Shown: positions 1,219 to 25,820 of the stretch, piece by piece | How positions within the stretch are numbered: position 1 is the stretch's first letter | Layout: the number at the start of each line of letters is the position of its first letter | From: Acidobacteriota bacterium | Lineage (GTDB): Bacteria; Acidobacteriota; Thermoanaerobaculia; UBA5066; Gp7-AA6 | Assembly (NCBI GenBank): GCA_027307335.1 | Contig: DAHUXD010000025.1 | Span: forward strand, 1-38,438 | DNA: 38,438 nt | Reading direction: 5' to 3' | The notes under the pieces: model-generated | Told to the model about the DNA's origin: nothing | The model's input: the letters and a program-made list of their open reading frames with translations, nothing else | Database searches by the model: none | Made by a program: the position numbers and the translations under genes

Positions 1219-2949
1219 ATGCCGCGCGTGCACCGCCTCTCGAGCGAGGTCATCGATCGCATCGCCGCCGGAGAGGTCGTGGAACGTCCCGCGTCGGCGG
1301 TCAAGGAGCTCGTCGAGAACGCGCTCGACGCGGGCGCCTCGCGGATCGAGGTCGAGGTGGATGGCGGCGGCATCGACCGGATCCTCGTCCGCGACGACGG
1401 CGCCGGCATGTCGGCGGAGGACGCGCGGCTCGCGCTCGAGCGGCACGCGACGTCGAAGATCGCCTCCGACGACGACCTCGCGCGCGTCGCGACCTTCGGC
1501 TTCCGCGGCGAGGCCCTGCCGTCGATCGCCTCCGTCTCCCGCCTCACGCTGACGACGTCGGACGGAAGCTCGCCGGAGGCCGTGCGCCTGCGGATCGAGC
1601 ACGGCGGCTCCGCGACCGAGGAGCCGGCCGCGCGCCCGCGCGGCACGGACGTGCTGGTCGAAGGCCTGTTCTCGAAGACCCCGGCCCGGCGGAAGTTCCT
1701 CGCCTCGGCCGAGGCGGAAGCCAGGGCGGTCGCCGTCGCCGTCACGCGCGCCGCGCTGTCGAGCCCCGCCGTCGCCTTCACGCTGAGGTCCAACGGCCGC
1801 GAGACGCTCGATGCCCCCGCCGCGGTGGACCGGGGCGCGCGCATCCTCCAGGTGTTCGGACGCGCCACGCTGGGAGAGCTCGAGAGCTTCGAGGCGCGGG
1901 CCGGCGGTCTGCGGCTGGCGGGGTACGCGACGCGGGGCAGCGTGACGTTCCCGAGCCGCCGACACCAGTACCTCTTCGTCAACGGCCGCCCGATCGAGGA
2001 CCGCGGCCTCTCCCGGGCGATCGGGCAGGCGGCGCGCGACGCGATCCGGATCGACCGCCATCCCGGAGCCTTCCTCTTCCTGACCGCCGACGCGGGCGTC
2101 GTCGACGTCAACGTCTCACCGGCCAAGACGCAGGTGCGCTTCGCCGATTCGGCGACGGCGTTCCGCCTCGTGTACCACGCGCTCCACTCGGCGCTCCTCG
2201 CCGGCAAGGAGGAGCGCCGCCTGCGCCCGGTGCCGACGGGGACCGTGATCGCCGAGCCGGCGGCGACCTACCGCGACCCGTTCGCGGCGCCGCCCACGGT
2301 GCCCGTCATCGTGCCGCCGCCGTCTCCGCCCGAGGCCGGAGCCGAGGCGCCGTCGCCGGGGCCCGAGAGGCGCGTCCCCGAGCTCGTGCCGATCGGCCAG
2401 TACCGCGAGTCGTTCATCCTCGCGAGCGGGCCCGAGGGGCTCCTGGTCATCGATCAGCACGCCGCCCACGAGCGCACGCTGTACGAGCGCATCCGCGACC
2501 GCATCGCGTCGGGCCGCGTCCTCTCGCAGAAGCTGCTCCTGCGGGTCCTCTTCGAGGCGACGCCCGAAGAGGCCGTCACGCTCGCCGCGCGCTCCGGCGA
2601 CCTCGCCGCGTCGGGATTCGAGATCGAGCCCATGTCCGGCCGTTCGTACGCGATCGCCGCGCTACCGGCCGAATCGACCGAGCGCGCTCCCGTCGAGACG
2701 CTCCGCGCCGCGCTGGCCGCTCTGGCCGACGCGGGCGCCTCCGACGAGGCCCTGCGGCGCGACCGTCTCGCGGCGAGCCTCGCCTGCCGTTCCGCGGTCA
2801 CGATCCGCTACCACCTGGCCGGGGAAGAGATCCGCCACCTGCTCTCGGACTGGGCGAAGACGCGCGACCGGTTCACCTGCCCGCACGGACGGCCGGTCGT
2901 GCTGTCCCTGTCGGAGGTGGACCTCGAGAAGCACTTCAAGAGGCGCTAG
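1219..2949 (+). CDS. mutL: DNA mismatch repair protein MutL (endonuclease type)
   Basis: This 576-aa protein couples mismatch recognition by MutS to strand removal. The N-terminal GHKL ATPase is complete: KELVENALDAGA (catalytic E30, Mg-binding N34), DDGAGM (59-64), HATSKI and GFRGEAL. A Pro-rich linker follows near residues 360-385. The C-terminal dimerisation domain carries the latent endonuclease motif DQHA(x)2E(x)4E at 412-423, an ACR motif, and CPHGRP (C554), which together form the metal site. This points to a nicking MutL as in Bacillus and most bacteria lacking MutH, unlike E. coli MutL. The ATG at 1219 was chosen because MPRVHRLSSEVIDRIAAGEVVERP aligns with the usual MutL N-terminus; the frame is open further upstream without homology. 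No mutS lies in the window. Confidence 0.97.
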   Translation: MPRVHRLSSEVIDRIAAGEVVERPASAVKELVENALDAGASRIEVEVDGGGIDRILVRDDGAGMSAEDARLALERHATSKIASDDDLARVATFGFRGEALPSIASVSRLTLTTSDGSSPEAVRLRIEHGGSATEEPAARPRGTDVLVEGLFSKTPARRKFLASAEAEARAVAVAVTRAALSSPAVAFTLRSNGRETLDAPAAVDRGARILQVFGRATLGELESFEARAGGLRLAGYATRGSVTFPSRRHQYLFVNGRPIEDRGLSRAIGQAARDAIRIDRHPGAFLFLTADAGVVDVNVSPAKTQVRFADSATAFRLVYHALHSALLAGKEERRLRPVPTGTVIAEPAATYRDPFAAPPTVPVIVPPPSPPEAGAEAPSPGPERRVPELVPIGQYRESFILASGPEGLLVIDQHAAHERTLYERIRDRIASGRVLSQKLLLRVLFEATPEEAVTLAARSGDLAASGFEIEPMSGRSYAIAALPAESTERAPVETLRAALAALADAGASDEALRRDRLAASLACRSAVTIRYHLAGEEIRHLLSDWAKTRDRFTCPHGRPVVLSLSEVDLEKHFKRR

Positions 2950-2958
2950 AAAAAAAGA

Positions 2959-3016
2959 GCGCGGCTCTCGCCGCGCCCCTCACCCCTACCCCCTCTCCCG
3001 CGGGGAGAGGGGTTTT
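2959..3016 (+). terminator. Tandem hairpins after mutL
   Basis: A perfect 7-bp stem (2959-2965 with 2970-2976, loop TCTC) follows the mutL stop by 9 nt. A second 10-bp stem (2990-2999 with 3003-3012, loop GCG) is followed by TTTT. The convergent gene ends at 3025. The second hairpin is part of a dispersed repeat, so termination may be a by-product. Confidence 0.55.
2976..3012 (+). repeat. 37-bp dispersed palindromic repeat, copy 1
   Basis: The element begins CCCCTCACCCCTACC and ends in the self-complementary CCCTCTCCC-loop-GGGAGAGGG. A second copy, inverted, lies at 16390-16426 and matches at 35 of 37 positions; only the hairpin loop differs (GCG here, GGA there). Both sit at the 3' ends of convergent gene pairs. 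Repeats of this kind are widespread in high-GC genomes; mobility is unknown. Confidence 0.75.
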
Positions 3017-3024
3017 GCGATCTC

Positions 3025-3642
3025 TTAGTTGCTTCTCGGCGGCATCCCCACCTGCGCCTCGTTCTCGGCGCGGCGCTTGCGGACGTGGCTGATGATCAGG
3101 ACGAGGCCGAGCAGGATGAACGCCGCCGGGCCGCCCCATTCGGACATGAACGACCAGTCGATGTCGACGTAGCGGTCGATCAGGAGGAGCGCGCCGAGAC
3201 CGACGAGGATCACGCCCCAGGTCAGCCCGCCCGTTCCCGAGGCGGCGCGGCGCAGCTGCGGCTGTCCGGCAAAGCCCGCCTCGGCGAGCTCGCCGCGGTT
3301 GATCGCCTTCGCCTGGCGCACCGCGTCGATGATCGCGAAGAACCAGATGAACGCGACGACGGGGCCGAAGAACTCGCCGGGCCCGCGGTGCGACGTCATC
3401 ATGATGCCGAGGACGAACGCGCCGCCGACGGCGAAGGCGCGCGGGTAGAGGCCGAGGTACAGGTGTCCGAGTCCCGGGAAGACCGAGAGGAATCCGGCGA
3501 GCGCGGGCGACTTGCGCTCGACGATCACGGGGTAGGGAACCGGCCCCGTCGGGGCGGCCGGCGCCGGCGGCACCGCGGCGGAGGCGGGCGCGCCCGGAGG
3601 CGGAGTCGCTGTGGGCGGGTTGATGTTGCCGGTCTCGTTCAT
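3025..3642 (-). CDS. TM2/DUF5668-like multi-spanning membrane protein
   Basis: The product has 205 aa. A Pro/Ala-rich cytoplasmic N-terminus (about residues 1-45) precedes a TM2-like segment, PALAGFLSVFPGLGHLYLG, with the Gly/Pro-Gly pattern of that domain. Two to three hydrophobic segments follow, then a C-terminal pair (GVILVGLGALLLI and AAFILLGLVLII) separated by a DRYVDIDW loop, as in DUF5668 proteins near LiaF-type stress proteins. ATG at 3640-3642 has a good GAGGAG site 8 nt upstream. It lies 44 nt downstream of the anti-sigma gene and probably shares its transcript, with a possible own promoter at 3688-3716. A role in envelope-stress response is inferred from this context; the molecular function is unknown. 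Confidence 0.75.
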   Translation of the reverse strand: MNETGNINPPTATPPPGAPASAAVPPAPAAPTGPVPYPVIVERKSPALAGFLSVFPGLGHLYLGLYPRAFAVGGAFVLGIMMTSHRGPGEFFGPVVAFIWFFAIIDAVRQAKAINRGELAEAGFAGQPQLRRAASGTGGLTWGVILVGLGALLLIDRYVDIDWSFMSEWGGPAAFILLGLVLIISHVRKRRAENEAQVGMPPRSN

Positions 3643-3686
3643 GGCGATCACTCCTCGTCGAACTTCGTCTTCAGCGTTCGTCGCTC

Positions 3687-4517
3687 TTAGACACGCAAAA
3701 TCGGTGCGGAAAGTTCTTCGCGCTGCCCGGCGGCCACGTCGACGTCCACCGGAGTGGCCGCGGCGCCGCCGTCTTTGCCGAGGCGGGGCCGGTTCGGCGT
3801 CTTCTTCGGCTCGGGGCGCCACACGAGCGCGAACGCGTTCGAGACGGCCGCGCGCCCGTATCCGCCGATGCGGCCGCGCCACACGGCCAGAGTCCGGATC
3901 GCCTTCTCCTGGAGCGCGCCGAGACGATCGCCGATCGAGCTCTCGGCGACCGTCACCGCGTTGCGCGTGCTCTCGCCGAGTCCGGCGAAGCCGGCGCGGC
4001 GCACGACCGCGGTCGGATTCAGGCCGAGCAGCATGACGATGAGCGCGGCCGCATAGGCGTACGCGACGACCATGCGCCCCGAGAAGGCGGAGCGCCAGAA
4101 GGACCGCTTCTTCCTGTCGGGGCGCGCCGCCGCGAGGCGCGGCGCGAGCCAGGGCGGCGCTTCCGGCGCCGCGAGGGAGCGCATGGACTGCAGCGTGGCG
4201 GCCGCCTCCGCGCAAGCGCCGCAGCGCGAGAGATGGCTCCGCAGCCGCGCCTCGTCCTCCGGGGCGATCTCGCCCTCGACGAGCGTCGCGAGCAAGCCGT
4301 CGGCCGTCTCGCACGAGACCGTCGAGCGCGGGATGTCGAGCAGAGCGCGGCGCAGCGCCGGGCTCCAGGCGGGCGGCCGGAGCGCGGCCGAGAGCGAGAC
4401 CGTGCGGTCGAGCTCGGCGCCGAGGCGCTCGCATTCGTCACACGTCGCGCGGTGGCGCGCCGAGTCGGCCTCGGCGGCGCCGGAGACGAACAGGCGTTCG
4501 AGCTCCCGACAGCTCAT
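3687..4517 (-). CDS. Anti-sigma factor with two zinc-finger segments and one TM helix
   Basis: This 276-aa protein should sequester the ECF sigma factor encoded just upstream. Two ZAS-like motifs H-x3-C-x2-C are visible, at H22/C26/C29 and H95/C99/C102, with accompanying Cys at residues 3 and 69. One transmembrane segment covers about 149-166, leaving a C-terminal part of about 110 residues on the other side of the membrane. Most anti-sigma factors of this class have one ZAS motif; two in tandem are less common. The start ATG (4515-4517) overlaps the sigma stop as ATGA, so translation is probably coupled. The C-terminal part has no recognisable domain and may be the sensor. Confidence 0.85.
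   Translation of the reverse strand: MSCRELERLFVSGAAEADSARHRATCDECERLGAELDRTVSLSAALRPPAWSPALRRALLDIPRSTVSCETADGLLATLVEGEIAPEDEARLRSHLSRCGACAEAAATLQSMRSLAAPEAPPWLAPRLAAARPDRKKRSFWRSAFSGRMVVAYAYAAALIVMLLGLNPTAVVRRAGFAGLGESTRNAVTVAESSIGDRLGALQEKAIRTLAVWRGRIGGYGRAAVSNAFALVWRPEPKKTPNRPRLGKDGGAAATPVDVDVAAGQREELSAPILRV
3688..3716 (-). promoter_or_regulatory. Candidate ECF-type promoter for the TM2-like gene
   Basis: On the minus strand GAACTT (3711-3716) and GTCTA (3688-3692) are 18 nt apart, 45 nt before the membrane-protein start and overlapping the end of the anti-sigma gene. The two half-sites are identical to those in front of the sigma gene, but the spacer is 2 nt longer, which weakens the case. 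Confidence 0.35.
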
Positions 4518-5134
4518 ACGAGCCCCGCCGCCGCCATCGCGATCGAGGCGAGCGGCCCTCCGAGGGAATGCGACTCGTGGCGGGCGCGGATCCTCTTCGC
4601 GACCTCGGCGCGCGCCCGGAAGAGGCGCGACTTGACGGTGCCCTCGGGCAGCTCGAGCGCCTGGCCGATCTCGTCGTACGCGAGGCCGTTCAAGTCGCGG
4701 AGGATGAGGATCTCGGCGAGATCCTCCGGCACCTCCGCGAGCGCGGAGAACAGCATCCGGGTCCGCTCCTTCGTCAGCGCGAGCGTCGCCGGGTCGTCGT
4801 CGGACTTGAGCAGCGCGGTCACCGCCTCGTCGGAGACGAACCGGAACGAGTTCTCGCGCTTCCGTCGCCGGTAGCGGTCGATGCACAGGTTGCGCGAGAC
4901 CGAGAGCACCCACGCGACGAGCGGGAATCCGCCGTCGTAGCGGTCGAGGTTCTCGAAGATCTTGAGGAAGATCTCCTGCGACAGCTCGTCGGCGTCTTCG
5001 CGCTTCAGGGTGAAGTGGTACGCGATGGCGTACACCCGCTGACCGAACCGATCCACCAGGTCCCTCCAGGCATCGTCGTCGCCCCGGCGGCAGCGCGCGA
5101 CCAGTTCTTTTTCGTCGCCGTTGCCGGTGCTCAC
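4514..5134 (-). CDS. ECF (RpoE-like) RNA polymerase sigma factor
   Basis: The product has 206 aa. Region sigma-2 spans about residues 12-85 (DDDAWRDLVDRFGQRVYAIAYH, then DADELSQEIFLKIFENLDRYDGG and W..S..RNLCIDRYRRRK). Region sigma-4 spans about 125-180 (LPEGTVKSRLFRARAEV helix-turn-helix). A short Gly/Ala tail (about 185-206) follows. The start is GTG at 5132-5134 with GAGGG just upstream. The gene overlaps its anti-sigma partner by 4 nt. A GAACTT-N16-GTCTA promoter lies immediately before it, so it probably activates its own transcription. The signal sensed is not evident. Confidence 0.93.
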   Translation of the reverse strand: MSTGNGDEKELVARCRRGDDDAWRDLVDRFGQRVYAIAYHFTLKREDADELSQEIFLKIFENLDRYDGGFPLVAWVLSVSRNLCIDRYRRRKRENSFRFVSDEAVTALLKSDDDPATLALTKERTRMLFSALAEVPEDLAEILILRDLNGLAYDEIGQALELPEGTVKSRLFRARAEVAKRIRARHESHSLGGPLASIAMAAAGLV

Positions 5135-5150
5135 ACTGCCCTCATCGGAC

Positions 5151-16441: not shown

Positions 16442-17602
16442 CTATCCCCGCCCGGCCTCCGAGCGCCCCTCCGTCTCGATCTCGTACACGTCGATGCCGG
16501 TGCCCGCCTCGGTGAAGGCATGGATGGGGCTCGCGACGAACGGCGTCCGCCACCAGGTCCGGCGCGACTTGCCGAAGATCGCGAGCGTGATGCCGTGCTC
16601 TCGCGCGAAGCGCAGGAGCTCCGCCGCGACGTCCTCGGCCGAGAGCCACACGACCTTGGCGCCGAGCTCCATCGCGAGCGTGACGTTCTCGCCGAGGAGG
16701 CGGTGCTCCCGCGCCGACATCCGCTGCGGGCTGTCCCGGGCGGTCCGGACGTACACGGCGAACCAGTTCGTGTTCAGCTTGCCCGCGAGCGCCGAGGCCC
16801 GCCGCAGGAGCAGCCGCGTCGTCTCCGAGTTCGACGACATCGCGACCATCGCCTTGGTCCCGACGGGCTCGGTCGCCTCGGAGCGCGCCGGTCCGCGGCG
16901 GTCGGCTTCGAGCCGGTCGGCGATCTGCCGCAGGGCGAGCTCGCGGAGCGAGGCGAGGTTCTCCTCGGTGAAGAAGTTCTCGAGCGCGGGGCCGATGCGT
17001 TCGGTCGGGTAGATCTTGCCGGCGCGGAGCCGCTCGCGCAGCTCCTCGGAAGGCAGGTCGACGTTGATGAGCGCGTCGGCCTGGCGGAGCAGCCGGTCCG
17101 GCACGCGCTCCTTGACGTCGACGCCGGTCACGCGCGAGACGATGTCCTGCAGCGACTCGAAGTGCTGGATGTTGACGGCCGTCATCACCGAGATGCCGGC
17201 GTCGAGCAGGTTCTCGACGTCCTCGTACCGCTTGACGTTCTCGGTCCCGGGCACGTTCGTGTGGGCGAGCTCGTCCACGATCACGACCTCGGGCTTGCGC
17301 GCGAGGATCGCGGGGAGGTCCATCTCCTCGAGGTCCTTCCCCTTGTACGCGACCCGCCGTCGCGGGACGACTTCGAGGCCGGCGATGCGTTCGGCCGTCT
17401 CGGCGCGCCCGTGGGTCTCGACGATCCCGATGACGACGTCGACGCCCTCCTTCTTCAGGTGATGGGCGTCTTCCAGCATCTGGTACGTCTTGCCGACTCC
17501 GGCGGCGTGGCCGACGTAGATCTTGAGTTTGCCGCGGCGGGACTTCTCGATCAGCCGGAGGAAAACGTCCGGAGAGGTGCGTCGGGCCTCCTCCTGCGGC
17601 AT
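16442..17602 (-). CDS. kdpD: KdpD N-terminal domain plus UspA domain, stand-alone
   Basis: The 386-aa protein contains only the cytoplasmic sensor half of KdpD. The KdpD domain has Walker A GHAAGVGKTY (31-40), a DVVIGIVETHGR segment, and Walker B-like VVIVDELAHTNVPG. A UspA-like domain follows (about 250-370, ending in LAIFGKSRRTWW). There are no membrane segments, HisKA or HATPase. A kinase with the missing KdpD C-terminal architecture is encoded at 24369-25820, so KdpD is split into two proteins separated by the kdp structural genes. The stand-alone domain probably modulates the kinase; truncated KdpD proteins are known in cyanobacteria. It starts 10 nt after kdpC; a TAGAAT box 7 nt before the ATG may be an extra promoter. 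Confidence 0.9.
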   Translation of the reverse strand: MPQEEARRTSPDVFLRLIEKSRRGKLKIYVGHAAGVGKTYQMLEDAHHLKKEGVDVVIGIVETHGRAETAERIAGLEVVPRRRVAYKGKDLEEMDLPAILARKPEVVIVDELAHTNVPGTENVKRYEDVENLLDAGISVMTAVNIQHFESLQDIVSRVTGVDVKERVPDRLLRQADALINVDLPSEELRERLRAGKIYPTERIGPALENFFTEENLASLRELALRQIADRLEADRRGPARSEATEPVGTKAMVAMSSNSETTRLLLRRASALAGKLNTNWFAVYVRTARDSPQRMSAREHRLLGENVTLAMELGAKVVWLSAEDVAAELLRFAREHGITLAIFGKSRRTWWRTPFVASPIHAFTEAGTGIDVYEIETEGRSEAGRG

Positions 17603-17612
17603 CGCGGCAATT

Positions 17613-18197
17613 CTACCGGCCCGCCGGCAGCGAGCGGTCGAGGTCCAGGTTCGTCAGGAGGACGTTGACGCGCGGCTCGCCGAGGACCCAGAGCGTGCGC
17701 GGCTCGATGTGCCGGCGGATGACCTCGGCGACCTTCTCCTCCGGAACGCCGCGGGACTTCGCGATCCGCAGCGCCTGCCAGAGCGCGGCGTCGGGGGAGA
17801 GGTGGGGATCGAAGCCGGAGGCCGACGTCGTGACGAGGTCGGCGGGCACCGGCCTCGGATCGCCCGGACGATCGGCGCGCGCCGCGGCGACGGCGGCGGC
17901 GACCGCCTTCTCGAGGTCGGAGCTCGTCGGACCGAGATTCGTTCCCTGCGAGGCGGTGGCGTCGTAGCCCTGCTTGCCGGCCGCGGAAGGCCGCGAGTGG
18001 AGGTACTTCGGGCTCCGGAACCCCTGGCCGATCAGCTCGGAACCGACGACACGGCCGCCGTCGCCGGTCACGAAGGAGCCCTCGGCCTTCGCCTTCCAGA
18101 ACACGCGCGACACGCCCCAGACGACGGCGGGATAAACGCCGCCGAGGAGCACCGTCAGGACCACGACGTAGAGGGTCGAACGAACGATCAGTTTCAT
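17613..18197 (-). CDS. kdpC: Potassium-transporting ATPase subunit KdpC
   Basis: The 194-aa subunit has one N-terminal TM helix (about residues 8-30, LYVVVLTVLLGGVYPAVVWG). The periplasmic domain carries FRSPKYLHSRPSA, TNLGPTS, VPADLVTTSASGFDPHLSPDAA and the C-terminal PRVNVLLTNLDLD. All are conserved KdpC blocks. KdpC stabilises the complex and promotes ATP affinity. It lies 10 nt after kdpB. Confidence 0.96.
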   Translation of the reverse strand: MKLIVRSTLYVVVLTVLLGGVYPAVVWGVSRVFWKAKAEGSFVTGDGGRVVGSELIGQGFRSPKYLHSRPSAAGKQGYDATASQGTNLGPTSSDLEKAVAAAVAAARADRPGDPRPVPADLVTTSASGFDPHLSPDAALWQALRIAKSRGVPEEKVAEVIRRHIEPRTLWVLGEPRVNVLLTNLDLDRSLPAGR

Positions 18198-18207
18198 GGC
18201 TTCTTCC

Positions 18208-20238
18208 TCACGCGAGGTGAAGGGCGAGGACGATCCAGTCGATCAGCTTGATGCCGACGAACGGAACGATCACGCCGCCCACGCCGTAGATCCAGAGATT
18301 GCGCGCCAGGATGCGGGCGGCCCCGAGCGGCCGGTACCTGACGCCCCGGAGCGCCAGCGGGATCAGGGCGATGATGATCAGCGCGTTGAAGATGACGGCG
18401 GAGAGGATCGCCGACCTCGGGTTTCCGAGCCGCATGACGTTCAGCGCGGTCAGCGCGGGATAGGTCGCCGCGAACCTCGCCGGCAGGATCGCGAAGTACT
18501 TGGCGACGTCGTTGGCGATCGAGAAGGTCGTCAGCGATCCGCGCGTCATCAGCAGCTGCTTGCCGATCTCGACGACCTCGATCAGCTTCGTGGGATTCGA
18601 GTCGAGGTCCACCATGTTGCCGGCCTCGCGGGCGGCCTGGGTCCCGGTGTTCATCGCGACGCCGACGTCCGCCTGGGCGAGCGCCGGCGCGTCGTTCGTG
18701 CCGTCGCCGGTCATCGCCACGAGGTTGCCGCCCTCCTGCTCCTTGCGGATCAGCGCGAGCTTCTGCTCGGGCGTCGCCTGGGCGAGGAAGTCGTCGACGC
18801 CCGCCTCGCGGGCGATGGCGGCGGCGGTCAGCGGATTGTCGCCGGTGATCATGATCGTCTTGATTCCCATCGCGCGCAGCCGGTCGAAGCGGTCCCGCAT
18901 GCCGGGCTTGACCACGTCGCGCAGCGCGATGACCCCCAGGATCTTCGCGTCGTCCGAGACGAGCAGGGGTGTGGCGCCCTCCGCCGAGATCCTGTTGAGG
19001 AGGTCGGTCACCGCCGGATCGACGCGGCCGCCGAGGCCGCGGACCCACTCGATGACCGCCTCGCCCGCGCCCTTCCGGATCCGGCGCCCGTTCCAGTCGA
19101 CGCCGGACATGCGGGTGGTGGCGGAGAAGGGGATGAAGTGCATGCCCTCGACGTGTCGGCCGCGCAGGCCGAACTTCTCCTTGGCGAGGATGACGATCGA
19201 GCGGCCCTCCGGGGTCTCGTCCGCGAGAGACGACAGCTGGGCGGCCTCGGCGAGGTCGGAGGCGGCCAGCACGCCCGGAGCGGGGAAGAAGTCGGTCGCC
19301 TGGCGGTTGCCGAGGGTGATCGTGCCCGTCTTGTCGAGGAGCAGCACGTTGACGTCGCCGGCGGCCTCGACCGCGCGGCCGGACATCGCGAGGACGTTGT
19401 GCTGGAGCACGCGGTCCATGCCCGCGATCCCGATCGCCGACAGCAGGCCGCCGATCGTCGTGGGAATCAGGCAGACGAGCAGGGCGATCAGGACCGGCGT
19501 CGTGGCGACGCCCCTCGCGTAGAGGGCGAAGGGGCGCAGCGTCACCGTGGCGATCAGAAAGACGATCGTCAGGCCCGCGAGCAGGATCGAGAGCGCGATC
19601 TCGTTCGGCGTCTTCTGGCGGGAGGCGCCCTCGACGAGGGCGATCATCCGGTCGAGGAACGTCTCGCCGGGATTCGACGTGATCTCGACGACGATGCGGT
19701 CCGACAGGACGCGCGTGCCTCCGGTCACGGCCGAGCAGTCGCCGCCGGACTCGCGGATGACCGGCGCGGACTCGCCGGTGATCGCCGATTCGTCGACCGA
19801 GGCGATTCCCTCGACGACGGTGCCGTCGCCCGGGATCACCTGCCCGGCCTCGACGACGACGCAGTCGCCCTTCCGGAGCGTGGTCGCGGGCACCATCTCC
19901 TCGCCCTTGCGCGTCTGGAGGCGAGCCATCGTCTCGGTCCGCCCGCGCCGGAGCGCCGCGGCCTGCGCCTTCCCGCGTCCCTCCGCCATCGCCTCGGCGA
20001 AGTTGGCGAAGAGCAGCGTGAACCAGAGCCACAGCGCGATCTGCACGTTGAACAGCACGTCCTTGCCCCGCGCGACGTCGCGGACGAGCAGCACGCTGAC
20101 CAGGACCGCCCCGACGAGGACGACGAACATGACCGGGTTCTTCGCCTGGAGGCGCGGATCGAGCTTCCGGAAGGCGTCGCCGACGGCGGCGCGGACGATG
20201 GCGCGGTCGAAGAGGGAGGTGCGTTTCGGCGGAGCCAC
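18208..20238 (-). CDS. kdpB: Potassium-transporting P-type ATPase subunit KdpB
   Basis: The 676-aa catalytic subunit has the actuator loop TGES, phosphorylation motif DKTGT, the nucleotide-domain FSATTRMSG segment, and the hinge [11 protein letters not shown]. The short M-domain of type IA pumps is present, including the [20 protein letters not shown] segment. The inhibitory-phosphorylation serine of TGES is retained. The start is GTG (20236-20238), with GAGGA upstream. It follows kdpA by 13 nt. Confidence 0.97.
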
Positions 20239-20251
20239 TTTCGGTCCTCCT

Positions 20252-21979
20252 CTAGAAGAGCGTCCCGGCCTTCATCAGCAGCTGCTCCACGATCGGACCC
20301 AGCGAGAAGGCGGGGAAGAAGGTCAGCGCGCCCACGATGACGATCACGCTGACGAGCAGAAACGAGAAGATCGGTCCCGTGACCGGGAAGGTCCCCGCCG
20401 ACTCGGGCACCTTCTTCTTGGCGGCGAGCGAGCCGGCGATGCCGAGAATCGGAATCAGCATGAAGAAGCGGCCGAAGAACATGTCGAAGCCGAGCGTCGT
20501 GTTCCAGAAGGGCGTGTTGGCGTTCAGGCCCGCGAACGCGGAGCCGTTGTTCCCGGCGCCGGAGATGTAGGCGTAGAGGATCTCCGAGAGCCCGTGCGGG
20601 CCCCTGTTGTTCAGCGACGAGAGGCCCGCCGGCAGCACCGCCGCCGCCGCCGAGAAGCCCAGGATGCAGAGCGTCAGAATGAGCACCGAGAGCATCGCGA
20701 GCTTGACCTCGTGCGCCTCGATCTTCTTGCCGAGGTACTCCGGCGTGCGGCCGACCATGAGCCCGGCGATGAAGACCGCCAGGACGATGAAGAGGAACAT
20801 GCCGTAGAGGCCGGCGCCGACGCCGCCGACGATGACCTCGCCCGTCGCGATGTTGGCCATCGGCACCAGTCCCCCGATCGGCGTGAACGAGTCGTGCCAG
20901 GAGTTGATCGCGCCGCAGGAGGCGTCGGTCGTGATGGTGGCGAAGAGGGCCGAGTCGCCGATGCCGAAACGGACCTCCTTTCCCTCCATGTTGCCGCCCG
21001 TGCCGCCGTCGGTCGGCGCCGCGGCGACGCCGAGCTTCTGGTGGATGGGATTGCCCTTCTGCTCGGCCCACTCGCAGACGAAGACGCCGGCGAGGAACAT
21101 CAGCGCCATGGCTCCGAAGACCGCCCAGCCGTGCCGGACCGAACCCGTCATCCGGCCGAGCGTGTTCGTCAGCCCCGCGCCGACGGCGAAGATCAGGATC
21201 ATCTCGAGGAAGTTCGTTCCGGGCGTCGGGTTCTCGTACGGGTGCGCCGAGTTCGCGTTGAAAAAGCCGCCGCCGTTGGTCCCGAGCTCCTTGATCGCCT
21301 CCTGAGAGGCGACCGGTCCTTGCGCGATCTTCTGCTCGACGCCCTCGACGGTCTTCACGACGACGTCGGCGCGGAAATTCTGGACGACGCCCCGCGACAC
21401 GAGGAAGAGCGCGGCGACGAGCGAGATCGGCAGCAGCACCCAGAGAATCGAGCGCGTGCAGTCGAACCAGAAGTTGCCGATTCCCTTCGCCTTCTCGCGC
21501 GCCACGCCGCGGATGACGGCGACGGCGATGGCGATGCCGGTCGCCGCCGACAGGAAGTTGTGCAGGGCGAGGCCCGCCATCTGGGTGAGGTGCGACATCG
21601 TGCTCTCGCCCGAGTAGCCCTGCCAGTTGGTGTTCGTGGTGAAGGACACCGCGGTGTTCCAGGAGGAGTCCGGCGAGACGGGGCCGAACTTGTTCGGGTT
21701 GAACGGAAGCCACTGCTGGAGACGCTGCATCGCGTAGAGGATCACGAGCGAGGCTGCGTTGACGATGAGCATGGTCACCGTCCAGTCCACCCACCCCTGG
21801 TCTTGCGAGGCGTTCACGCCGCAGGCCCGGTAGATGGCGCGCTCGATCGGCCGCAGCACCGGATCGAGGAACGTGCGCTCCCCCGAGAACACCCGCTTCA
21901 TGTAGCCGCCCATGAGCGGTGTGAGCGCCACGATGATCGCGAGGTAGACCAGGATCTCGACGAAGTTGATGGTGGTCAT
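20252..21979 (-). CDS. kdpA: Potassium-transporting ATPase subunit KdpA
   Basis: The 575-aa channel-like subunit contains all four selectivity-filter loops of the K+ channel superfamily: [36 protein letters not shown] and [10 protein letters not shown]. About ten TM segments are visible. Length is close to the E. coli protein (557). ATG at 21977-21979 lies 4 nt after the kdpF stop. Confidence 0.97.
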
Positions 21980-22177: not shown

Positions 22178-23080
22178 TCAGAACGAGTAGCCGAGCTCGA
22201 TGAGCCCGCCGTGTCCCTTCGAGTCTCCGTTCTTCATGGTGTAGGCCGCGTAGGCCGTCCAGTGTCCGAAACCATAGATGAAGCCGGGCGAGAAGTAGCC
22301 GATCGAGTTCACGCCGCTGTACCAGTCCGCGGCGAGCGTCAGGCCCTTCACCCACGGCAGCGGCTGCTCGAACGACACGAGGGCACCGCCCGTCGACGTC
22401 GGCTTCGCGAAGCCGGCGGAGGAATACCAACCGCCGACGTCGATACGCGTATCGGGGCCGGCGATGCGATACGACGCGAACCCGTAGCCCATGCCGGCAG
22501 GATTCCCGTCCTCGCTGCCCCGAAGATAGAAGAGACCATAGCCGCCGGCGGTCAGCGAGAAGCCGCCGGCGTGAACGGGCTGGATCTTCACGGCGACGGT
22601 CGCGGTGGGAATCGAGGGACCGGGCGAAGAGAAGCCGCCGAAGTTGACGCCCGCCTCCATGCCGGGGACCACGCCAACCACGCCCCGGACCGTCGTCGCG
22701 GAGAACCTCGGGTCGGTGGGCCGAAAAAGCTCGTCCACCTCGGCATAGACCTTCCCCGGATCGAGGACATCGGCGGACGGGACGTTGAAGATCGTCTGCT
22801 GCGCGAGCACCGCAGCGGTCGATGCGGAGAGAAATATCGCGGCGGCGACGAGCTTCGCGCGGGGGGCCTTCGTCTCGAGAGGGCGGCGCCGCTGCTCGAA
22901 CACCCTCTCGTCCGCTTTCCAAAGAATCATCGCCCGCCTGCCGCAGGCAACGTATCCCACGAAGCCGGCCGCGACGAGAGGAGTTTGCATCTGGGGAGCC
23001 GCCAGGGCGGCGACGCAGCCCCCGACGAGGACGATGAATGCCATTGAGGCGTAGAGCGTCGCTTTCCGTTCGTCTCTCAT
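22178..23080 (-). CDS. Two-TM domain fused to a putative outer-membrane beta-barrel
   Basis: The product has 300 aa. Residues 1-62 are a two-TM domain (helices about 12-28 and 33-50) that is 33/62 identical to the next gene upstream. A basic linker follows (QRRRPLETKAPRAK). Then comes a signal-peptide-like stretch (77-93, ending AVLA before QQ). The rest (about 95-300) has alternating, aromatic-rich strands and a C-terminal Phe, as in outer-membrane barrels of kdp loci. An internal signal peptide in a fusion is odd. The barrel may be made separately from GTG codon 60 or ATG codon 51, or the two-TM part may anchor it. It leads the kdpFABC transcript, 10 nt before the 27-aa ORF. A role as a K+ porin is inference. 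Confidence 0.7.
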   Translation of the reverse strand: MRDERKATLYASMAFIVLVGGCVAALAAPQMQTPLVAAGFVGYVACGRRAMILWKADERVFEQRRRPLETKAPRAKLVAAAIFLSASTAAVLAQQTIFNVPSADVLDPGKVYAEVDELFRPTDPRFSATTVRGVVGVVPGMEAGVNFGGFSSPGPSIPTATVAVKIQPVHAGGFSLTAGGYGLFYLRGSEDGNPAGMGYGFASYRIAGPDTRIDVGGWYSSAGFAKPTSTGGALVSFEQPLPWVKGLTLAADWYSGVNSIGYFSPGFIYGFGHWTAYAAYTMKNGDSKGHGGLIELGYSF

Positions 23081-23086
23081 GCCGCG

Positions 23087-23141
23087 AGCATGATGGTCGA
23101 GGAGGGAAGAAGTCCGGAAGTTCGGCGAAGGAACCGCGGAA
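23087..23141 (-). promoter_or_regulatory. kdpE box: Four-repeat regulator box and -10 of the barrel-kdpFABC operon
   Basis: Read on the + strand, GGGAAG (23103), CGGAAG (23114), CGAAGG (23125) and CGGAAG (23136) start at an exact 11-bp period. On the transcribed strand they are CTTCCG-N5 repeats. A -10-like CATGCT (23087-23092) lies 10 nt downstream of the last repeat, and the ATG is 6 nt further. OmpR/PhoB-family regulators bind 11-bp direct repeats ending about 10 bp before -10. KdpE, encoded next door, is the likely binder. Confidence 0.65.
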
Positions 23142-23191
23142 GACACGATCGTTTCCTCTCGAGGCGCAGAAGCGGCGATCAGGGAGATCGG

Positions 23192-23560
23192 TCAGCGGGC
23201 TCGTTCGACGCCGCGCGGGAAGGCGGGTTGCGCGCGTTGTGCTGATCCGAAGGAGGCAGGACGAGAGGTCGCGTTCATCGCGTGGACGAAGGACAGCGCC
23301 CCCACCGAGCCGGAAGCCAGGCCGGCTCGGACGGCCTCCAGCGCCGCCTGCTCCTCGGACCCGAAGCGCTTCGACTCGAAGACGAGGTCGTCCACGCGGC
23401 AGAGCGCCAGAGCGCGTCGGGTGCAGGCGACGTACCCCACGAAGGAGGCGACCACGATCGCGACCTGCAGCCGAGGCGAGAAGAGCGCGATGAGGCAACC
23501 CCCGAACAGCACCGCGAGAGCCAGCCCGCCGAGTCCGGTCGCCTTTCGTTTGTCCGTCAT
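23192..23560 (-). CDS. Two-TM protein, paralogue of the barrel fusion's N-terminus
   Basis: This 122-aa protein has two TM helices (about 10-28 and 33-50: LALAVLFGGCLIALFS; AIVVASFVGYVACTRRALAL). The first 62 residues match the N-terminus of the neighbouring barrel fusion at 33 positions, sharing RKAT, GGC and FVGYVACxRRA. The C-terminal 60 residues are unrelated, Ala/Arg-rich and low in conserved pattern; they may be a decayed barrel fusion or simple tail. The upstream region is duplicated too. No known family is recognised. The cysteines in GGC and VAC are kept in both copies, hinting at function. Confidence 0.65.
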   Translation of the reverse strand: MTDKRKATGLGGLALAVLFGGCLIALFSPRLQVAIVVASFVGYVACTRRALALCRVDDLVFESKRFGSEEQAALEAVRAGLASGSVGALSFVHAMNATSRPASFGSAQRAQPAFPRGVERAR

Positions 23561-23566
23561 GCTGCG

Positions 23567-23622
23567 AGCATCCCGCCGGCCGGGAAAAGAAGTCCGGAAG
23601 AGGGGCGGAAGAATTGCGGAAG
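23567..23622 (-). promoter_or_regulatory. kdpE box: Four-repeat regulator box and -10 of the two-TM gene
   Basis: On the + strand GAAAAG (23584), CGGAAG (23595), CGGAAG (23606) and CGGAAG (23617) recur every 11 bp; three are perfect. A -10-like GATGCT lies at 23567-23572, 11 nt from the box and 6 nt from the ATG. The arrangement duplicates that at 23087-23141. Confidence 0.65.
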
Positions 23623-23694: not shown

Positions 23695-24372
23695 TCAGTC
23701 GGGCGAGAAGCGGTATCCCACCCAGGGCTCGGTGCGGAACCAGCTCGGCCGGTTGGGATCGTCCTCGAGCTTGCGCCGAAGACCGCCCATGTGGACGCGC
23801 AGCGTGTCGTTGGTGACGCCGGCCGTGGTTCCCCAGACCGCGGCCATGAGCTGCCGGTGGGTCCAGACGGCGCCGGGCTTCGTCAGCATCGTCGCGAGGA
23901 TCTCGAACTCGAGCGGCGTCAGGTGCACGGGACGGCCGGCCTTCCGCACCGTGCGGCTCTCCACGTCCACCTCGACGTCGCCGAAGCGCGAGAGCGCGGG
24001 CCCGCGCGCCGAGTCGCCGCGGCGGAGCAGCGCCCGCGCGCGCGCGACGAGCTCCGCCACGCCGAACGGCTTCGTCACGTAGTCGTCGGCGCCTTCGTCG
24101 AGGAGGCGCACCTTCTCGCGCTCCTCGTTCCGAACGGTGAGGACGAGGATCGGCAGCGGCGAGCGGCGCCGGATCTCCTTGACGAGCTCGAGGCCGTCGA
24201 CGCGGGGCATGGCGAGGTCGGTCACGACGAGATCGAAGCCTCCGTCGTCGAAGCGATCGAGCGCCTCGCGGCCGTCGATCGCGCTCACGACCTCGTGGCC
24301 CTCGCGCTCGAGCGCGTCGCGCACGACCTTGCGGATCGCCGGCTCGTCGTCGGCGAGGAGGATGCGGCTCAC
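23695..24372 (-). CDS. kdpE: Response regulator KdpE
   Basis: The 225-aa OmpR-family regulator has a receiver domain with acidic D8, D9, phospho-acceptor D52 (LVVTDLAMP), T79 (LTVRNEE) and K101-area TKPFG. A winged-helix DNA-binding domain follows (LTPLEFEILATMLTKPGAVWTHRQL, then TLRVHMGGLRRKLE, ending WVGYRF). The start GTG overlaps the kinase stop (GTGA at 24369-24372), so kinase and regulator are co-translated. It should activate kdp expression under K+ limitation. Confidence 0.93.
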   Translation of the reverse strand: MSRILLADDEPAIRKVVRDALEREGHEVVSAIDGREALDRFDDGGFDLVVTDLAMPRVDGLELVKEIRRRSPLPILVLTVRNEEREKVRLLDEGADDYVTKPFGVAELVARARALLRRGDSARGPALSRFGDVEVDVESRTVRKAGRPVHLTPLEFEILATMLTKPGAVWTHRQLMAAVWGTTAGVTNDTLRVHMGGLRRKLEDDPNRPSWFRTEPWVGYRFSPD

Positions 24373-25820
24373 GCGGCGGCCCGCGGGAGGGCGATCTCGA
24401 AGAGGGCGCCTCCCGACTCGGCGTCGCCGATCCGCAGGGTGCCCCCGTTCAACTCGACGAGGCTCCGGGCGATCGAGAGCCCGAGGCCGATGCCGGGGAG
24501 GTGCGCCGCGTCCTCGAGACGCACGAAGCGCTCGAAGATGCGATCCCGCTCGCCGGCGGGGACTCCCTTGCCGCGGTCGGCGACGCGGAAGAAGACCTGG
24601 TCGTCGACGGCGGCGACCGAGACCTGGATCGTCGAGCCGGGCGGCGAATAGCGCGCGGCGTTCTCGAGGCCGTGCCCGAGTGCCTCGGTCATCTGCGCGG
24701 GGTCGACCTCGACGGCGAGATTCGCCGGCGGCGGCTCGATGTACAGCGAATGGCCGGCCAGCGCCTCCCCGAATCGGGCCACGGCCGCCTCGACGATCTC
24801 GGCGCAGGTCACGCGTTCCACGCGGGGACGGGCGGCGCCGGAGTCGAGCCGCACCAGGTCCATCAGCTCGGCGACGCGGCGGCCGAGCGCATCGAGCTGG
24901 GCCGCCGCCGCGCGCGAGGCCTCGGAGCCGCCGCTGTCCGCCTCCCAGTTTTCGATCGCGCCGCGGGCCGCCGCGACCGGCGTCTTGAGGTCGTGGGCGA
25001 GCTGCGCCAGGAGCGTCGACTTCATCTGATCGCTCGTCCGCGTCTCCTCGGCGGCGCGCGCGAGGCCCAGGAAGCGCTCGCGCTCGACGGCGAGGCCGAG
25101 CAGCAGCGCGCACGCCTCCGCCATCCGCTCGCTCGACTGCAGGCCGCGGGCGACGAGCGTGCCCGCGCGCTGGAGGCCGACGGGGATCGGCAGGTAGATG
25201 TCGGTGCCGCCGAGCTCCGACGGCAGCGCGGCCGAGTTGCCCTGCCGGTAGGCGAGCTCGGCGAGCTCCTCGCGGAACGCGATCCCGCCGGTCTCGACGC
25301 GTCGGGCGAGCTCGCCCTTCTCGTTCGGGAGCAGGATCGCGACCTCCCGGCACTGCAGCGCCTGGCGCAGCCGGTCGGCCGCGACGCCGAGGAGCGACTC
25401 CCGATTGGTGTCGGCGAGGAAACCCTGCGAGAGCTGGGTGAGCGCAATCAGGTCGCGCCGCTCCGCTTCGAGGAGCTCGAGCCGGCGCCGCGAGATGGCG
25501 GAGAGCCGGCCGATGAGCAGCCCGGAGACGAGGAAGACGAAGAGGGCGGCGACGTTGCGCGGGTCCTGGACCGTGAACGTGTAGAGCGGCGGGAGGAAGA
25601 AGAAGTTGAAGCCGAGCGTCGCGAGGAGCGCCGCTACGACGCCGGGCCCGCTCTGCCAGATCGAGGCACAGAAGAAGACCGCGAGGAGCAGCAGCAGCGC
25701 GACCGAAGACTCGTTGAGCTGCGGGAAGAGTCTCAGGAGGCCGATCGTCGCGCCGACGGCGACGACCGCAGCGGGGTATCCCACCCACCGCGGGCCCGAG
25801 CCCTTGATCACGCGGGACAT
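24369..25820 (-). CDS. KdpD-type histidine kinase lacking the KdpD N-terminal domain
   Basis: The 483-aa protein has four TM helices of the DUF4118 type (about 13-105, with GFNFFFLPPLYTFTVQDP as in KdpD). A GAF-like region (about 125-250) and a HisKA domain with phospho-acceptor H276 (AHDLKTPV) follow. The HATPase has N-box NAARYSPPG, DRGKGVP and GIGLGLSIAR. This is the C-terminal two thirds of a classical KdpD. The missing N-terminal domain is encoded separately at 16442-17602. It follows queA by only 18 nt, so the kinase-kdpE pair may be transcribed with queA. Confidence 0.92.
   Translation of the reverse strand: MSRVIKGSGPRWVGYPAAVVAVGATIGLLRLFPQLNESSVALLLLLAVFFCASIWQSGPGVVAALLATLGFNFFFLPPLYTFTVQDPRNVAALFVFLVSGLLIGRLSAISRRRLELLEAERRDLIALTQLSQGFLADTNRESLLGVAADRLRQALQCREVAILLPNEKGELARRVETGGIAFREELAELAYRQGNSAALPSELGGTDIYLPIPVGLQRAGTLVARGLQSSERMAEACALLLGLAVERERFLGLARAAEETRTSDQMKSTLLAQLAHDLKTPVAAARGAIENWEADSGGSEASRAAAAQLDALGRRVAELMDLVRLDSGAARPRVERVTCAEIVEAAVARFGEALAGHSLYIEPPPANLAVEVDPAQMTEALGHGLENAARYSPPGSTIQVSVAAVDDQVFFRVADRGKGVPAGERDRIFERFVRLEDAAHLPGIGLGLSIARSLVELNGGTLRIGDAESGGALFEIALPRAAA

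Follow-up and report, generated by a model that had tools for sequence, protein, structure and literature searches.

A candidate KdpE operator of three GC-rich 11-bp repeats in Thermoanaerobaculia (Acidobacteriota)

KdpE binding sites are known experimentally in a handful of species, four of which are given in a single study (PMC5401905). In E. coli, the site consists of two 6-bp direct repeats 5 bp apart (TTTATA-N5-TTTACA) with an invariant TT at their start, and the residues R193, R200 and T215 of KdpE are needed for DNA binding (PMC3264566). The M. smegmatis site is a 22-bp sequence, CCGTAAAGAAACCATCAAGGCC, in which its authors see no similarity to other KdpE sites (PMC5401905); by our reading, which is not theirs, the other strand, GGCCTTGATGGTTTCTTTACGG, resolves into CTTGATGG and CTTTACGG 11 bp apart, giving two units that share the spacing but not the bases of those described below. 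The same geometry extends to the PHO boxes of PhoB and of Streptomyces PhoP, in which 11-nt direct repeat units are bound head to tail and, in Streptomyces, operators vary in the number and organisation of their units (PMC4415409), but these boxes differ in regulator, unit sequence and signal, which is phosphate. A literature search on KdpE operators in Acidobacteria or Thermoanaerobaculia returned nothing relevant.

The window analysed here is a 38,438-nt stretch of an acidobacterial genome in which a kdp operon occupies the minus strand, running from the C-terminal half of KdpD (24369..25820; DUF4118, HisKA and HATPase domains) through kdpE, an OmpR/PhoB-family response regulator (23695..24372), tm1 (23192..23560), tm2 (22178..23080), kdpA (20252..21979; TIGR00680, E=2.8e-222), kdpB (18208..20238) and kdpC (17613..18197) to the N-terminal half of KdpD (16442..17602; KdpD sensor domain PF02702 and a weak Usp match). 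Both kdpB and kdpC were named by position and translation, and the order of kdpB homologues is kept in relatives, as is the splitting of KdpD into a kinase half before kdpE and a sensor/Usp half after kdpC. The product of tm1 is a small two-TM-type protein of 122 aa without a Pfam match. That of tm2 (300 aa) has a tm1-like N-terminus, for which we found no Pfam family and no sequence homologue elsewhere in the class, followed by a segment resembling a signal peptide and, at the C-terminus, an outer-membrane-like part; it looks as if a small membrane protein had been joined in frame to a signal-peptide-bearing outer-membrane-like protein, and a comparable layout occurs in one relative (G132).

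Each tm gene is preceded by an array of boxes that reads, on the operon strand, as CTTCCG-N5 in 11-bp phase. An earlier note on this DNA had reported four CGGAAG-related elements per array on the plus strand. Its positions for the first array are right (perfect CGGAAG at 23595, 23606 and 23617, and GAAAAG at 23584), as is its count of five perfect boxes among the eight, whereas its starts for the second array, whose boxes and phase are real, lie one base too low and should read 23104 (GGGAAG), 23115 (CGGAAG), 23126 (CGAAGG) and 23137 (CGGAAG). In both arrays the weakest box is the fourth, operon-downstream one. On the minus strand, operator 1 (23590..23622) thus comprises the 11-bp units CTTCCGCAATT CTTCCGCCCCT CTTCCGGACTT, the third of which overlaps the -35 region, and is followed by a weak fourth element, CTTTTC (23584..23589), of which CYT alone is conserved in relatives, a -10-like GATGCT (23567..23572) and tm1. 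Operator 2 (23110..23142), likewise on the minus strand, reads CTTCCGCGGTT CCTTCGCCGAA CTTCCGGACTT and leads through a weak fourth element, CTTCCC (23104..23109), and a -10-like CATGCT (23087..23092) to tm2. The two hexamers, already recognised as xATGCT in the earlier note, begin 11 nt beyond the last array element and exactly 17 nt past unit 3, and in both cases the ATG follows 6 nt after the hexamer, predicting a leaderless start for tm1.

We propose, with a probability of roughly 0.85, that each array joins a promoter to an operator for phosphorylated KdpE, and that low K+ would act through it to switch on tm1, tm2 and kdpFABC. KdpE monomers would bind head to tail on the three direct repeats (CTTYMG-N5), on approximately the same face of the helix. 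As the third unit lies over the -35 region, bound KdpE would take the place of a good -35 and keep RNA polymerase on a weak -10 ([CGT]A-N3-T) that starts exactly 17 nt downstream. With the start codon 5-8 nt beyond this -10, and transcription initiating on it or beside it, the message would be leaderless. When K+ is low, KdpD would phosphorylate KdpE and thereby turn on tm1, tm2 and the kdpFABC genes behind them.

The best reading of these sites, judged by their sequence, is a GC-rich, three-unit KdpE operator that overlaps the -35 region and is a variant of the E. coli 11-bp direct repeat. Like the operator of E. coli kdpFABC, they consist of 6-bp half-sites repeated directly every 11 bp (that is, 5 bp apart), begin with TT (shifted by one in unit 2 of operator 2, CCTTCG), lie on the operon strand and stand upstream of kdp genes, or of other K+ uptake genes beside kdpDE. 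The earlier note had called the site unlike that of E. coli, which holds for the base content and unit number, since A/T positions of the E. coli site are C/G in the window arrays and three units plus a weak fourth replace two, but not for the TT and the 11-bp step, which are shared. Because TTTA is the core of the E. coli form and the window units carry TTCC, we class the window site as a variant of the KdpE operator rather than as an E. coli site; many relatives carry TTTA in unit 1 (CTTTAG). The 11-bp geometry is thus already known, and what differs, besides unit number and bases, is the overlap with the -35 region, with the last unit 17 nt from the -10 (in MG1655, by our own count, TTTATACTTTTTTTACACC stands ~38 nt before TACCCT), the predicted leaderless starts and the presence of operators at several places per operon.

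Relatives were examined as loci around kdpA from the class and by a class-wide search in 149 genomes. The three-unit element, with consensus CTTTAGNNNTT CTTTCGCNNNC CTTCCGGACTT, occurs in at least 22 Thermoanaerobaculia genomes, nearly always beside kdpDE, and a gapless alignment of 20 operators (A1) reads CTTTAGNNNTT CTTTCGCNNNC CTTCCGGACTT CYT, with T14 and T25 invariant and T2, T3 and T15 in at least 90% of sequences. The earlier note had held that a lack of arrays upstream of kdp in close relatives would speak against a KdpE operator: Arrays adjoin kdpDE, on the operon strand, in most class genomes with KdpE, and boxes in the same 11-bp phase, differing in bases, follow kdpE in the nearest relatives. 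When CTTYMG was scored in four 11-bp steps, most kdpE-linked loci reached 20-24 of 24 on the operon strand, as against 15-19 for other periods. The comparison of related genomes with randomised sequence, also suggested in that note, gave 38 sites on the operon strand near kdpE versus 1 on the opposite strand in 197 kb of class DNA, and 25 scrambled boxes gave none in the same 197 kb. A search of the 149 genomes for exact matches to three degenerate boxes returned kdp loci repeatedly, whereas the reversed control produced scattered single matches; matches away from kdpE (in G060, G062, G087 and G146:C69) were set aside, on brief inspection, as apparently unrelated tandem repeats. In G060, in which no kdpA was found, tandem 11-bp repeats (CTTCCGGACAT/CTTTCGGACAT) are dispersed over several contigs (L163, L218, L219, L220) with no full-length KdpE nearby, possibly as sites of another regulator or as a repeat family.

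An operator model (R1) was built from 20 sequences, including both window arrays. Its matches at E<=1e-6 in the 149 genomes lie nearly all beside kdpE or kdpD homologues, many of them 17-86 nt past the kdpE stop. Most of the 19 sites outside the model-building set also adjoin such homologues (in G137, G140, G089, G012, G133, G030, G013, G028, G029 and G142). Two kdpE-linked kdp loci (G010 and G018) have no clear array. Beyond the class, a sample of 396 genomes from the phylum yielded no operator at E<=1e-4, and the GC-rich form therefore seems restricted to Thermoanaerobaculia. The strongest period across 73 kdp loci from other phyla was a lag of 11 (30/73 with at least 7/8 identities, as against 16% of shuffles), and with lags 9, 12, 15 and 18 also raised, this lends moderate support to an 11-bp repeat. 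The longest array, of about ten consecutive 11-bp units (TTCGAAC-N4), stands after kdpE in G142 (L003, 5670-5790).

Among kdpA loci with enough flanking sequence, the operator is present at 15/17 with an R193-type KdpE and at 0/7 without one (Fisher p=1e-4, a value that ignores shared ancestry and is inflated because the sequences are related by descent). It does not occur where no regulator is nearby or where the one nearby is without R193. The operator tracks KdpE rather than kdpFABC. The regulator encoded in the window combines a receiver with a Trans_reg_C domain and has KdpE as its top match, at 207.8 bits, below the NCBIfam equivalog cut-off of 325 bits. Like its E. coli counterpart it has R193, R200 and T215, but it carries T191, G198 and P217 in place of Y191, H198 and T217, a combination that fits an altered base preference.

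The 11-bp direct repeat is generic to the OmpR/PhoB family (PMC4415409), and the genome encodes several other full-length regulators of this type, so that a real operator bound by one of these instead is the strongest alternative, albeit an improbable one: The sites accompany kdpE across genomes, even where kdpFABC was not found, they are missing along with an R193-type regulator, and the window's own genome has none outside the kdp operon. In its 4.37 Mb, the exact pair CTTCCG-N5-CTTCCG occurs in array 1 and nowhere else; a degenerate three-box pattern with up to 2 mismatches has 11 matches, 4 of them in these arrays, compared with 8 for the reversed control; and the R1 model returns the two arrays at E=4.2e-12 (operator 1) and 3.6e-8 (operator 2), with the next site at 0.02. 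Neither the pattern search nor the model scan revealed a regulon beyond kdp above noise in this genome. Assignment as a PHO box was rejected, as the unit is CTTYMG rather than CTGTCAT-like and the neighbours are kdp rather than pho regulon genes.

The layout downstream of the boxes is equally constrained. Among 37 distinct sites selected on boxes alone, 34 have [CGT]A-N3-T (scored as A and T at hexamer positions 2 and 6) exactly 17 nt downstream of unit 3, whereas other offsets from 5 to 44 account for 0-6 sites each and the chance expectation is ~1/37; both G012 sites lack a -10 at this offset. The first position of the hexamer is mostly C or G, not T. The R1 search itself partly rewards A52/T56, which makes the held-out count of 17/19 not wholly independent, unlike the count based on boxes only. 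The PhoB-like arrangement suggested by the earlier note, in which a box replaces the -35, is therefore borne out in 34/37 sites, where the last box overlaps the -35 region at a fixed spacing to the -10. Of these 34 sites, 27 have a start codon 5-8 nt past the -10, its distance from the array start peaking at 62 and 63 nt, so the messages are probably leaderless, with their 5' end probably on the start codon or beside it.

Since conservation is highest in the third unit, which stands 17 nt from the -10, the boxes might alternatively be read as the promoter of an alternative sigma factor, with CCGGACTT as its -35, CANNNT as its -10 and the upstream units as accessories. This we consider less probable still: Conservation of units 1 and 2, in phase with the third at exactly 11 bp, is nothing that a sigma factor by itself would require, about ten consecutive units occur in one relative, and the strong sites lie nearly all at KdpDE loci. 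How the two arrays have diverged also speaks for the KdpE operator. As the earlier note had stated, the genes behind them are paralogous, with 52% identity across 65 aa, which implies that array and gene were duplicated together and that the two arrays are not independent. Between the duplicates, the three boxes are identical at 26/33 positions and the stretch from the -10 to the ATG at 13/15, compared with 7/17 in the 17-nt spacer and 16/60 in the 60 nt upstream, a pattern that fits selection on the boxes and the -10. That the arrays are a functionless local tandem duplication or low-complexity tract, copied once along with a tm gene, has in its favour only this shared origin, and with strand, phase and spacing to the -10 and start codon conserved across families, and a spacer that drifted while the boxes did not, it appears already contradicted and is the least probable reading by far.

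The candidate KdpE operator is not restricted to kdpFABC. In three genomes (G002, G012 and G133) no kdpA was found, but the operator, KdpD/KdpE and a KimA-type K+ transporter are present, and in a fourth (G013) kdpA is on another contig and the operator lies before or beside such a transporter. The sole PDB match of the transporter that the operator precedes or adjoins in these four genomes is the K+ importer KimA (6s3k, E=1.2e-59). KimA-type transporters stand beside KdpDE and behind the same operator at L225 (G002), L215 (G013), L226 (G014), L212 (G012), L213 (G133) and L217 (G029), preceded in several of these loci by a Usp-domain protein. On balance, we favour the view that KdpE of Thermoanaerobaculia uses a portable 62-bp cassette of three 11-bp boxes, 17 nt, a weak -10 and a predicted leaderless start codon, which has undergone repeated copying, on its own or together with genes for small membrane proteins, and has brought different K+ importers, KdpFABC or KimA, under one sensor. 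The earlier note had the second array drive kdpFABC; its role as a KdpE operator is supported, but as several modules of operator and gene per operon are common in the order, neither array need be the sole driver.

These sites provide a candidate KdpE operator at base resolution for an entire class of Acidobacteriota that is mostly uncultured, link KimA to KdpDE as an alternative target, and suggest that the 11-bp direct-repeat geometry survives changes of base content and unit number. The changes at Y191, H198 and T217, set against that from TTTA to TTCC, offer a natural series of regulators and operators for probing base choice by the KdpE recognition helix, and the leaderless, exactly spaced layout would make start sites predictable to the base.

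In several relatives the operator occurs two to five times per operon, often directly before the gene of a small two-TM protein, as at L004 (G138, 3312-4490), L209 (G137, 1465-3842), L210 (G140, 2274-5150) and L122 (G132, 1568-1989). These two-TM proteins, which possibly form an unnamed family of Kdp accessory proteins, differ in sequence, and some of them share the short motif F-x-G-Y within their second hydrophobic stretch.
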